The notes below the pieces were generated by a model. It was not told where the DNA came from and ran no database searches. It saw only the letters and a program-made list of their open reading frames with translations. The translations under genes were made by a program, and so were the position numbers. DNA of 64,000 nucleotides from a marine actinobacterium PHSC20C1 (GTDB lineage Bacteria; Actinomycetota; Actinomycetes; Actinomycetales; Microbacteriaceae): contig CH672415.1 in assembly GCA_000153145.1 (NCBI GenBank), positions 1,484,767-1,548,766 of the forward strand, read 5' to 3'. Positions 49,553-53,041 of the stretch are shown piece after piece (within the stretch, counting starts at the first letter, position 1; every line of letters begins with the position of its first letter).

Positions 49553-49999
49553 TCAGGAAGCCCATTCGCCGCGAGTCGCAGCATTGAGTGCCAAATTTGT
49601 GTTCATTTCGACGTAAACGGCCAGTCGCGGCATCGCGCACTCGTTAATTACGTCGGCGATGTCTTGGGCATGGCGGCTAGCGCACGCCCTCACGGTAGCC
49701 CGCGCGCTATCGATGCAGGAACTGCAGGGTTCGGCCGAGCGGCAAGAATCGTCTCGCGGGTGCTGCTCTTCGTGGAGGGCAACCGCCAATTGCGTCATCG
49801 CAAGCTCGAGAGTGGCTACGAGCGAATGGATGAGGTCGTGCGGCCAGTGCCCGGATCGATCGAAGGCAGCGAATTCTGACTCTCGGCAACGGACGCAGCC
49901 CGCCTTCGTTCCACCGGCTGGACTTCGCCATTCCGAGACGGAGCGGTACCAGCGCTGGAGCGAGCATTCGATGAGATCGTTCAAGGCATGACGATTCAC
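49553..49999 (-). CDS. Cys/His-rich protein of unknown function upstream of pilB
   Basis: I recognise no family. The 148 residues contain two CxxC pairs (Cys35/Cys38 in GCVRC, Cys92/Cys95 in PCSSC), three or more further Cys and several His (51, 54, 58, 76, 80, 110), which suggests metal binding. No membrane segment or signal peptide is seen; the middle is helical. Third codon positions are strongly G/C, as in neighbouring genes, which supports coding. The start is GTG at 49999 with GGGGG about nine bases upstream. It precedes pilB by 92 bases on the same strand and could be part of that transcript. Confidence 0.55.
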   Translation of the reverse strand: MNRHALNDLIECSLQRWYRSVSEWRSPAGGTKAGCVRCRESEFAAFDRSGHWPHDLIHSLVATLELAMTQLAVALHEEQHPRDDSCRSAEPCSSCIDSARATVRACASRHAQDIADVINECAMPRLAVYVEMNTNLALNAATRGEWAS

Positions 50000-50029
50000 T
50001 AGTTATCCGCCCCCTTAGTTGATCCGATG

Positions 50030-50058
50030 TTATTGATACTGGCACCGGGATCTAATCT
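50030..50058 (+). promoter_or_regulatory. Weak candidate promoter of the two-component operon
   Basis: TTATTG (50030-50035), a 17-base spacer and TAATCT (50053-50058) lie about 140 bases before the response regulator. The -10 is good, the -35 poor. The gap 50000-50199 has no gene and must contain divergent promoters. Confidence 0.3.
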
Positions 50059-50199
50059 CAGGCAGTCGTCACTATCGATGACACCTGTTTGGGGGACAGA
50101 CAGAAAGTTCCGGTACGGTTGTCGTAGGCGAATGCGAATCTTTCTCGCAAGCTAGTTCACCCTGATCCGAACGGGGCACGATTGATACAGAAAGACGAC

Positions 50200-50844
50200 G
50201 TGCGGCGCATCCATCGGGTGGGCCATGTTGACGACCATGAAACCGTGCAACTCGGCTTCGCTTCGCTCCTTGCTGATTGCTCGGACATCTCCCTTATGGC
50301 GTCTGCTCGCAGCGTGAACGACTTAGCTTCAGTCGTTGAGCATCTCGATCTTGTGGTTCTCGACGTGCGCCTCTCAGACGGAAGCACTGTTGAAGAGAAC
50401 GTCGCCTGGCTTCGCGAGCGTGGACTAAACGTTCTCGTTTTTACGGCAGCAGATAATGCCTTTGAAGTTCGCGCTGCCTCTAGAACGGGAGTATTGGGAA
50501 TCGTCAGAAAGTCCGAATCTCGCGCCGTGATCATCGACGCAGTGCGGGAAGCTGCGCTCGGCAATCCCGTCGTCACGACCGACTGGGCTGCAGCGATCGA
50601 CTCTGATCCCGAGCTCGCTGCTGCCGGCTTGAGCCCCAAGGAGCAAGAAGTCCTGGCGCTCTATGCTTCCGGCGACAAGTCCGTCACAGTTGCTCACCGT
50701 GCAGGCCTCTCATCGAGCACCGTCGCAGAATACGTTCGTCGCATCCGCTACAAGTACGCCATGGCTGGCCGTCCGGCGCATACGAAAGTCGACCTCTATA
50801 AGCGGGCCGTGGAAGACGGTTTGCTCCCTCCCCCGCAATCGTGA
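50200..50844 (+). CDS. Response regulator, NarL/LuxR type
   Basis: DNA-binding response regulator of 214 residues. The receiver domain has the acidic pair Asp11/Asp12 (HVDDHETVQLG), phosphoacceptor Asp55 (LVVLDVRLSDG), Thr82 and Lys104 (IVRKSE). The C-terminal LuxR-type helix-turn-helix is LSPKEQEVLALYASGDKSVT through GLSSSTVAEYVRRIRYKYA. GTG 50200 gives the usual short lead before the receiver; an in-frame TTG at 50182 is an alternative. It overlaps the kinase by four bases (GTGA), so the two are a cognate pair. Being divergent from pilB, it may regulate pili, which is inference. Confidence 0.88.
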   Translation: MRRIHRVGHVDDHETVQLGFASLLADCSDISLMASARSVNDLASVVEHLDLVVLDVRLSDGSTVEENVAWLRERGLNVLVFTAADNAFEVRAASRTGVLGIVRKSESRAVIIDAVREAALGNPVVTTDWAAAIDSDPELAAAGLSPKEQEVLALYASGDKSVTVAHRAGLSSSTVAEYVRRIRYKYAMAGRPAHTKVDLYKRAVEDGLLPPPQS

Positions 50845-52040
50845 GCGGCTTCGCACCGCGAGTTCCGACGACGGCGAGCGCAGAACTGGGTGTTGTCAGG
50901 GTCATGAGCGGGGTTCTGGCCGCCGCGACCATGCTCTTTCTTGGGCTGACGATCGGCGCTCTCCTCGAGCAACGTGGATTTGTACCGCCGCTCTGGCAGA
51001 CCGCGGCCGCTGTCGCCATCTTTGGCCTACCGCTCATATTGGCTGCAGTCTCACCGTGGGCGTCACTCCGCCAGCTCAAAAACTTTCACGGCACCTACGC
51101 TGTGATTTTCGCCGTCGTGGTGTTGAGCTGGATCCCCGCGTTCGTCAACGGACCGATGCCTGCCGATATGGCACCGTGGACCGTGGGAATGACGGCTTTG
51201 AGCACAGTACCCGCGGCGATCGCGTGGCGCCCGGCTATCGCGTGGGCCTTTCTCATTGCTAGCTCGCTCGTCATCGCTCCGATACGAATCATTGCTGATG
51301 GCGGTGCCGACGTATCACTCGCAATCCAGTTCGCTGTGTTCACCATTACCGTGTGTGCGGCATTCACCGCCGTTGCGACGGTCGCTGTGGGCGCAGGTCG
51401 CAAAGTGGATGTCGCAACCGCAGCTGCCCGAAACTCCTCGATGCGCGCCGCAGCGCTGACTGCGCGTGCCGAGGAACAGGCGCATCTCGACGCGCTTGTT
51501 CACGATGAAGTCATCGCAACGATCTTTGCGGCAGCCGGTGCCGGGCGCAGCGATTCAAAATCTACCCAAACCCAGGCGGCTCGCACCATTGCAAGACTTA
51601 GCGAACTTCGCGAAGCGACCGTGAGCGTTCCGGAACTCATCCATTCTGACTATTTGGTCCAGGGCCTGGGCGCATCGATCGACGAAATCACAGACACTGC
51701 AGACTTCGTCGTGATCGGAGAGCGAAGCCAGCCCATCCCCTCGCTCATTGCTAGCGCACTCATCGAAGCCACCGTCGAAGCACTCCGCAATAGCGTCGCG
51801 CACGCCTCGATTGACTCTTCGCCCGTGCAGCGCGTCGTCACTCTCGGCTTGAGTGCCAATCGCGTTGAGATCGCCGTTACCGACGACGGCAAAGGCTTCG
51901 ACTCTCGGCGCGTGCCCGCCGATCGCCTCGGCATCGTGGTGAGCATCATTGGTCGCATCAATTCGCTGCCCGGTGCTCGCGCAACGGTATGGTCCCAAAT
52001 CGGGGAAGGCACACGAGTAACTGTGGGGTGGCAACAGTGA
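50841..52040 (+). CDS. Six-helix membrane sensor histidine kinase
   Basis: Sensor kinase of 399 residues. About six membrane helices fill residues 18-185 with no large extracellular loop, so the signal is probably sensed in or at the membrane. The phosphoacceptor is His221 in DALVHDEVIATIF, the HisKA_3 type used by NarL-family systems. The ATP-binding domain has the N-box EATVEALRNSVAHA (309-322) and G-box DDGKGF (348-353). The start is GTG in a GTGA overlap with the response regulator; its own stop overlaps the next gene in the same way. Confidence 0.9.
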   Translation: MSGFAPRVPTTASAELGVVRVMSGVLAAATMLFLGLTIGALLEQRGFVPPLWQTAAAVAIFGLPLILAAVSPWASLRQLKNFHGTYAVIFAVVVLSWIPAFVNGPMPADMAPWTVGMTALSTVPAAIAWRPAIAWAFLIASSLVIAPIRIIADGGADVSLAIQFAVFTITVCAAFTAVATVAVGAGRKVDVATAAARNSSMRAAALTARAEEQAHLDALVHDEVIATIFAAAGAGRSDSKSTQTQAARTIARLSELREATVSVPELIHSDYLVQGLGASIDEITDTADFVVIGERSQPIPSLIASALIEATVEALRNSVAHASIDSSPVQRVVTLGLSANRVEIAVTDDGKGFDSRRVPADRLGIVVSIIGRINSLPGARATVWSQIGEGTRVTVGWQQ

Positions 52041-53041
52041 GCGAGCAGGCTTTCGCACCGAAAAGATTAGAACTGCCCGAGATCACGGGTCGAGGTGCCC
52101 ACCTATTGATCTGGACGTATTACCTCACGATGTCGTCGCTTGCCCTACTCGCGCTCGATGATGTGCACTCTCCAACCATTGTTTATCTTTCGATTGGGAT
52201 CTTTGGTGCAATCTGGTTCGTTCTGACACGAGATACCCGACCTCGCGTTGGCCTAGGAGTAGCGACGTTCGTCATTGCAGCGAGCGTTGTCACGACGTTG
52301 CTATCGTCATGGAATTCAACCGTCGGCGGATTCTCACAGTGGTACGTCGGCGCTGGCGCTCTTGCGATGTTCTATCTCAGCTTGCGCGGCCGCGACCTCG
52401 CAGCGTGGATCGGCTTCACCGCCATCGGCTTTGCTTTTGTTGCCTGGGGATTTACGACAGACAATCGGTTACTCGAATCGATCGTGGTTGTTGCGCGTCA
52501 AGCTCCCATTGTTCTCGTCGGGTCACTGTTCTCGTACGGCATGAACAGAACGAGTAAAAAACTCGAAGGGGTCCAGGAGGCGGATACGGCACGAGCCACA
52601 GCCGAAGCAGCCGCACTCGCGCGAACAGCGGAGCGGTCGCGCCGCCTTGCCTCCCTCGACGCCGCCGTTGGTCCACACTTGAAACGCATTGCCGACGGCG
52701 CAGAACTGAGCAGCAATGACCGCCGCGAGCTAATCGTTGCAGAAGCACGATTACGCGACAGTCTGCGCGCGCGCCAACTCGACCTCCCCGAGATCGTGAC
52801 CGCAGTTCAACGCGCCCGCTTGCGCGGAGCGACGGTGCTCTTGCTTGACGATCGCTACCCTCGAACGCTACCCCTAGGGGCGCTCTCGCGGATCATCGTC
52901 GCCGCGGTACAGATGCTCGACTCCGCCGACGCTGGCACAGTCACGATTCGGCTGCTGCCCGCCGGCCGGACACTGATCGCGACGATGGTGGCGGATAGCG
53001 ATGGCTACACTCGCGTGGAGATACCGACGCTTGACCGCTAG
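52037..53041 (+). CDS. Degenerate kinase-like six-helix membrane protein
   Basis: I know no named family. The 334-residue protein copies the kinase architecture: about six membrane helices (residues 22-170), an Ala/Arg-rich coiled coil (about 172-205), and a cytoplasmic region of the right size for HisKA_3 plus ATPase domains. Yet no N-box is present and the G-box is reduced to ADSDGYTRV (319-327). His214 (VGPHLKRIAD) is the only candidate at the phosphoacceptor place. The GTG at 52037 overlaps the kinase stop (GTGA), so it is made stoichiometrically with the kinase. It may be a non-catalytic partner that dimerises with or restrains it. A strong terminator follows. Confidence 0.78.
   Translation: MSEQAFAPKRLELPEITGRGAHLLIWTYYLTMSSLALLALDDVHSPTIVYLSIGIFGAIWFVLTRDTRPRVGLGVATFVIAASVVTTLLSSWNSTVGGFSQWYVGAGALAMFYLSLRGRDLAAWIGFTAIGFAFVAWGFTTDNRLLESIVVVARQAPIVLVGSLFSYGMNRTSKKLEGVQEADTARATAEAAALARTAERSRRLASLDAAVGPHLKRIADGAELSSNDRRELIVAEARLRDSLRARQLDLPEIVTAVQRARLRGATVLLLDDRYPRTLPLGALSRIIVAAVQMLDSADAGTVTIRLLPAGRTLIATMVADSDGYTRVEIPTLDR

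Follow-up and report, generated by a model that had tools for sequence, protein, structure and literature searches.

A candidate kinase/pseudokinase three-component cassette in the marine actinobacterium PHSC20C1 and other Microbacteriaceae

In group A Streptococcus, FasBCA is a published three-component system built from two kinase-like proteins and a response regulator (RR), with FasC as a proposed pseudokinase (PMC12675982). Here we describe a three-gene cassette of the marine actinobacterium PHSC20C1 (Microbacteriaceae; GenBank assembly GCA_000153145.1), located in a 64,000-nucleotide stretch of contig CH672415.1 (positions 1,484,767 to 1,548,766 of the forward strand; hereafter the window, whose positions are used throughout), that encodes an RR, a membrane sensor histidine kinase, and a third protein with the predicted fold of a histidine kinase and none of its conserved catalytic residues (Table 1). 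The three products probably form a three-component system in which a heterodimer of kinase and pseudokinase serves as the receptor.

Judging from the available part of its description, FasBCA(X) is the nearest published layout: it likewise has one RR and a pair of kinase-like membrane proteins, predicted to have six membrane helices, and the Fas pair heterodimerizes (PMC12675982). As characterized there, FasC retains the phospho-accepting histidine and a predicted HATPase domain (PMC12675982), whereas the third protein here lacks a conserved histidine and the ATP motifs, and its domain is shortened. Because FasC keeps the histidine that the third protein lacks, the cassette is not a FasBCA member, but it may work like one. 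The Fas kinase and regulator families also differ from those of this cassette, whose RR carries a LuxR/GerE helix-turn-helix (HTH). The original prediction, made from the window sequence, that no named system has this layout is thus partly wrong, since FasBCA is a named three-component system of comparable arrangement (PMC12675982), although its proteins are different.

In the CovRS system of group A Streptococcus, the pseudokinase RocA interacts with the true kinase CovS and raises its activity; RocA has six putative membrane helices, a dimerization and histidine phosphotransfer (DHp) domain, and a degenerate catalytic domain (PMC7028121). RocA still has a candidate, dispensable His246, and the accessible portion of that report describes no coupling to covS (PMC7028121). 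Here, in contrast, the kinase and third genes are adjacent at every surveyed locus. To our knowledge, DivL/CckA and RetS/GacS are proteobacterial, differ in architecture, and are not known as operon-coupled pairs. In these systems too, according to the sections available, kinase-like proteins control a true kinase by direct contact (PMC12675982), RetS blocking GacS activity (PMC4866733). Within the actinobacteria, the ChrS pseudokinase of Corynebacterium glutamicum, whose catalytic domain does not work, boosts signaling via a paralogous kinase; it is a laboratory-evolved frameshift, however, not a natural gene family, and in the portion of the report at hand a two-hybrid assay did not reveal heterodimers containing the truncated form (PMC9491836).

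Operon-encoded accessories of other kinds have also been described. The actinobacterial conservon protein CvnF8 binds and stimulates the kinase CvnA8, but it belongs to a G-protein system and is a different kind of accessory (a GAF domain is among the keywords of the partly available source) (PMC13343842), and LiaFSR and VraTSR combine a membrane accessory, a kinase, and an RR in one operon, although their accessory, as described in the available text, is of the LiaI-LiaF-TM/Toastrack type and not a kinase homologue (PMC11237479). CvnB, CvnC, and GTPase genes are not beside the kinase at the window locus, which is flanked by the pilT/pilB side and by rpoC, and no LiaF/Toastrack-type family was found among 66 diverse third proteins searched against Pfam and NCBIfam. 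No description of the cassette was found in the open literature searched, which leaves most subscription journals outside.

A two-component pair and a third protein with a predicted kinase-type fold

Relatives were collected as 149 loci, which are not a random sample because each was fetched for a match to the third gene, to the kinase, or to a relative of the window protein. A 12-member profile identified 152 third genes in them; one locus was entered twice (L039 and L119). The RR matches Pfam Response_reg (5.6e-8) and GerE (1.3e-6), and its phospho-Asp, Asp63 in alignment numbering, is present in 141/141 aligned RRs. The kinase matches HATPase_c at E 8.3e-5, below the Pfam cut-off, and gives no Pfam match to HisKA_3 up to E 10 and only weak NCBIfam matches to NarX, LiaS, and MadS; it nonetheless has the H, N, G1, and G2 residues. 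In the 152 relatives the phospho-His column holds His in 146 (with three Arg and three gaps in fragments), the N-box Asn is found in 150, G1 has Asp in 151 and Gly in 151 and 150, and the G2 Gly is invariant (152). With a receiver, a LuxR/GerE HTH, and H/N/G1/G2 motifs, the first two genes are a two-component pair, as predicted. In a PADLOC search the RR showed only weak similarity, located in its C-terminal half. The 141 aligned RRs also share a C-terminal signature, approximately R-x-R-x-KY-x3-GRPA-x-TK-x-DL-x2-RA-x-EDG, which could serve for finding the triad family.

The third protein was modeled with AlphaFold from seven sequences (mean pLDDT 72.7, pTM 0.49). The model has helices at residues 19-38, 46-65, 73-93, 98-116, 120-140, and 145-219, which are read as six membrane helices, the last extending into the cytoplasm, followed by a second helix (226-244) and a helix-strand-helix-strand-strand-strand arrangement. 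Of the 50 VIA-align rows listed against this model, 18 span the helical N-terminal part and 32 the C-terminus. All 32 of the latter are histidine-kinase-type catalytic or DHp-catalytic domains or Spo0B, at Z 6.3-7.9 (ETR1, phytochromes, RetS, AgrC, PhoQ, DosS, DesK, AdeS, HK853, ShkA, CpxA, GacS, and Spo0B; we take 2c2a to be HK853 and 1f51 chain B to be Spo0B), so the predicted fold is not unrelated to histidine kinases. Among them, DesK (3ehg) matches at Z 7.2, with 2.4 A over 83 residues, and Spo0B (1ixm) at Z 6.5. Profile-profile comparison of the third protein with the kinase gave 97.4% probability over 201 columns, with 0.1% for the cross controls of membrane part against catalytic part. 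The kinase model follows the same element order as the third up to the G1 strand and then has one helix and two strands more. Residue mappings of the shortened ATPase fold disagree: the structural one covers the whole domain with an internal deletion, and the profile one places the LLDD strand of the third protein on the kinase G1 strand. A search of solved structures with a 66-row profile returned no kinase, its best match (adenylate cyclase 5, E 1.9e-5) being judged a membrane-helix similarity in the membrane/helical part.

Across the 152 members, the third protein has no conserved phospho-histidine, N-box, or glycine boxes. Its model combines six membrane helices with one long helix, a hairpin resembling DHp, and a shortened ATPase fold. 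It thus appears to keep the plan of the kinase without the N-box, as had been proposed, and on the model it qualifies as a predicted pseudo-histidine kinase.

The third proteins conserve residues of their own: Arg240 in 152 members, Glu236 and Arg261 in 151, Asp241 and Arg305 in 150, Arg244 and Gly264 in 148, Asp271 in 147, and L248 in 136. By this pattern the family appears to be live and not decaying. Were the third gene a non-functional relic, a decaying duplicate kinase held only by operon position, its lost catalytic motifs and shortened ATPase fold would be explained, and at least 10 genomes under 2 Mb among 150 searched Microbacteriaceae genomes (the family genomes) gave no third-gene match, so that some lineages can do without the gene. 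However, the residues peculiar to the third protein hardly vary among 66 members below 45% identity, and the gene is matched in six genomes of 1.1-1.7 Mb, which makes decay highly improbable. The family has no entry in Pfam or NCBIfam: the window protein gave two chance-level Pfam matches far under the cut-off (DUF2218, E 0.17; DUF4131, E 7.9) and no NCBIfam match, and the 66 members below 45% identity gave no consistent family in either library, only scattered weak matches in one or two members.

Linkage, co-evolution, and the proposed receptor

The GTGA start-stop overlaps that had been described between the three genes are present at 50841 (RR/kinase) and 52037 (kinase/third gene), and the linkage holds in relatives. 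The nearest surveyed upstream same-strand gene is the kinase for 152/152 third genes, and an RR precedes the kinase at 141 of these loci; the third gene is thus conserved next to the kinase, mostly with the RR in front of the pair. The 152 kinase-third junctions comprise 127 exact 4-base ATGA/GTGA overlaps, 12 longer overlaps, 9 single frames, 3 gaps of up to 30 bases, and 1 longer gap, giving overlap or a common frame at 148. Within the 66-member set the corresponding numbers are 47, 8, 9, 2, and 0. For comparison, the RR-kinase junction is a 4-base overlap in 40/141 loci and a longer overlap in 67/141. In the single-frame loci (L053, L183, L211, L223, L224, L227, L229, L232, and L242; the kinase match is partial in L223, L227, and L242), the kinase end runs through a linker into the first membrane helix of the third, and the third tree, which includes six of the nine, requires at least four fused/split changes. 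Viewed from the kinase, a third gene lies directly downstream of 142/147 kinase matches (E <=1e-50, 150 family genomes, no more than 12 candidates per genome scored), the other five being one partial match (G026) and four stand-alone kinases in one genus. Two third matches (G009 and G026) lie beside broken or partial kinases.

Trees of the two proteins were built from 146 pairs, six short rows having been dropped. They share 86/143 splits (over 20 shuffles the mean was 0.15 and the maximum 1), and 69 of 85 well-supported third-tree splits recur in the kinase tree, with 5 conflicting with a supported split. Mean-field coupling on 192 distinct kinase-third pairs (Neff 171) was raised between third residues 173-219 and kinase residues 185-233 around, and somewhat past, the in-register diagonal. 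Within 7 positions of the homologous offset, in both directions, coupling was higher than on far diagonals by 0.0678, against a mean of -0.0100 (max 0.0104) for random re-pairing, 0.0145 (max 0.0369) for re-pairing within 20 clusters, and 0.0244 (max 0.0478) within 40 clusters (25 re-pairings of each kind). Some leading pairs flank the phospho-His (third 199, 200, 203, and 207 with kinase 217, 212, 220, and 227); others do not suit a simple contact.

These data bear on how the third protein would engage the kinase. It might be a separate membrane accessory that binds a kinase homodimer from outside, inhibiting or activating it in the manner of LiaF or CvnF. Kinase-modulating accessories encoded beside kinases are established, on the available parts of the sources (PMC13343842, PMC11237479), and the linkage, trees, and single frames suit such an arrangement equally well. 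However, the third protein shares both homology and element order with the kinase, and their coupling follows the dimerizing helix in parallel and in register, as would be expected of a protomer, so an external accessory is the less likely arrangement.

Alternatively, the third protein could be a Spo0B-like module for phosphotransfer or phosphatase activity, receiving phosphate or acting on the RR, as suggested by the presence of Spo0B among the structural matches (1ixm, Z 6.5) and by a weak coupling of third helix 2 with RR helix 1 (z 2.1; z 0.7 for third helix 1; 139 triads, weak power). No histidine is conserved, however: at any helix-1 position examined (199-213) at most 6/152 members have one, which speaks against phosphotransfer and less against a phosphatase role. 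Phosphotransfer by the third protein was set aside on this ground, and a module of either kind is improbable.

Several points weigh against the heterodimer of kinase and pseudokinase. Foldseek found no match to the third model in PDB at E <=0.001 (best 0.095), and the VIA-align Z scores of 6-8 are middling and concern chains preselected by Foldseek; the fold assignment therefore depends on the agreement among the rows taken together with the profile comparison. The kinase model is poor (pLDDT 56.8); compared alone, the catalytic parts match at only 80%, and in a register unlike that of the structural alignment, whereas for the membrane parts the value is 64% over 35 columns. The fetched stretches of L243, L244, L245, and L246, all from one genus, hold no third gene beside the kinase, which can therefore stand alone at a locus. 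The coupling signal is partly shared ancestry, as the re-pairing means climb within clusters; the top pairs had been viewed before the band test was fixed, so that the test was not fully blind; and the positive control, the known kinase-RR contact, is weak (z 2.5 for helix 1 and 2.0 for helix 2; 139 triads).

Taken together, the fold, the conserved 1:1 linkage, the single frames, the tree agreement, and the in-register coupling support the proposal that the kinase has a built-in, non-catalytic partner in the third protein. The anatomy, the missing catalytic residues, the linkage, the single frames, and the co-evolution are observed, and from there coupled translation, a physical heterodimer, and possibly its obligate nature are inferred. 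The products of the overlapping kinase and third genes would assemble as a heterodimer with contacts through the membrane domains, the coiled coil, and the first DHp helix. Since the kinase half holds the sole phospho-histidine and the sole ATP-binding domain, its autophosphorylation would precede phosphorylation of the LuxR-type RR, and the third half would be a non-catalytic receptor or modulator that sets kinase output, whether by activation or inhibition. More speculatively, the working unit of a widespread class of actinobacterial receptors may always be the kinase/pseudokinase heterodimer and not a homodimer, with the near-invariant E-x3-R-D-x2-R motif on helix 2 of the dead half extending to the phospho-histidine or to the catalytic domain of the kinase and gating autophosphorylation; this version is less likely than not. 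If it were true, signaling would be switchable by swapping one half, and the pseudokinase would be an obligatory machine part and not an added regulator.

The window locus, paralogues, and distribution

Table 1. Features of the cassette and its upstream flank in the window
Feature	Position	Strand	Basis
Response regulator, receiver + LuxR-type HTH, TTG start	50182..50844	+	Pfam; start kept in relatives
Membrane sensor histidine kinase; phospho-His 221, N317, D348/G350/G352, G390	50841..52040	+	Pfam; motif columns
Third gene, predicted pseudo-histidine kinase; GTG start overlaps kinase stop	52037..53041	+	Fold model; residue conservation
Third gene, part for six modeled membrane helices, residues 19 to about 165	52091..52531	+	Model
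Third gene, predicted signaling helix/coiled coil and DHp-like helices 1 and 2, residues about 172-244	52550..52768	+	Model; coupling
Third-specific signature E236-x3-R240-D241-x2-R244-x3-L248	52742..52780	+	151, 152, 150, 148, 136 of 152
Predicted shortened kinase-type ATPase fold, residues 246-334, without ATP-binding motifs	52772..53038	+	Z 6.3-7.9 to kinase domains
Divergent intergenic region, 182 bases, with conserved block 50063-50116	50000..50181	.	Alignment of relatives
Conserved 148-aa Cys-rich gene between pilB and RR	49553..49999	-	Conservation in same-genus loci

The RR starts at TTG 50182, which is kept in all five Salinibacterium relatives aligned (L117-L121), and not at 50200 as originally predicted, where none of the five has the GTG. 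The cassette had been placed divergent from pilB, which together with a pilT-like gene is confirmed at the locus by Pfam (T2SSE). The 148-aa gene lies between pilB and the RR, however, and is the direct divergent neighbor of the latter. It is 69.6-74.3% identical in 7 same-genus loci (L039 and L119 being the same place) and 29.7% in L122, its substitutions fall mostly at codon position 3, and it matched no Pfam family. The non-coding block at 50063-50116, upstream of the RR, is strongly conserved. Two pieces of it searched in the PHSC20C1 genome with up to 3 mismatches gave one copy each and no further, and as the block is single-copy no regulon can be proposed from it as a possible regulator site. 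The neighboring genes at this and the other loci that we call rpoC, accA, accB (carboxylase), maf, rlmD, tdk, and carboxylase beta are presumed to be such from their sequence.

The triplet is not a chance arrangement, as three copies occur in the same genome and it recurs in most relatives. A second triad (L007, 6724-9801, - strand) has RR, kinase, and third beside a carboxylase beta gene, with about 30% identity to the window pair. The third triad (L008, 3822-6863) lies beside tdk in the order kinase-third-RR, its third gene being matched by the 66-row profile at 2.3e-13. This gene order is also seen in L249-L251, and the third is more divergent in triads of this order. Tandem second kinase-third pairs with Arg at the phospho-His column occur at L236 (8196-10426), L240 (7939-10178), and L046 (7267-9242); both halves of these pairs may be dead, or the His may be borrowed from the adjoining pair.

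Third genes were found in 114/150 genomes of Microbacteriaceae (64/85 genera), with up to five matches per genome, and in 102/396 order and 27/296 class genomes (both sets including family members). The cassette is thus widespread in the family and present in other families of its order and class. The carboxylase-side copy is the commonest in the survey (78/152), is kept across many Microbacteriaceae, and was found in 4/4 fetched genomes of 1.1-1.7 Mb (G010, G081, G092, and G095); with one other row, these copies form one clade in both trees (support 0.998 for the third, 0.77 for the kinase). Control of pilus or competence expression, suggested from the window alone, finds no support as a role of the cassette in general: only 11/152 cassettes have pilB or rpoC within the fetched stretch, nine of which fall into a single clade in each tree, versus 78 beside carboxylase-locus genes, and in the window the 148-aa gene separates the RR from pilB. 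pilB itself was matched at E <=1e-120 in 78/150 family genomes. Such control is possible in Salinibacterium.

The cassette represents a natural, operon-coupled kinase/pseudokinase candidate across 114/150 family genomes. Its many naturally occurring halves, cognate and non-cognate, could be used to study the control of a live protomer by a dead one and the means by which paralogous receptors stay specific. A protein family that is absent from Pfam and NCBIfam also gains a likely class of function.

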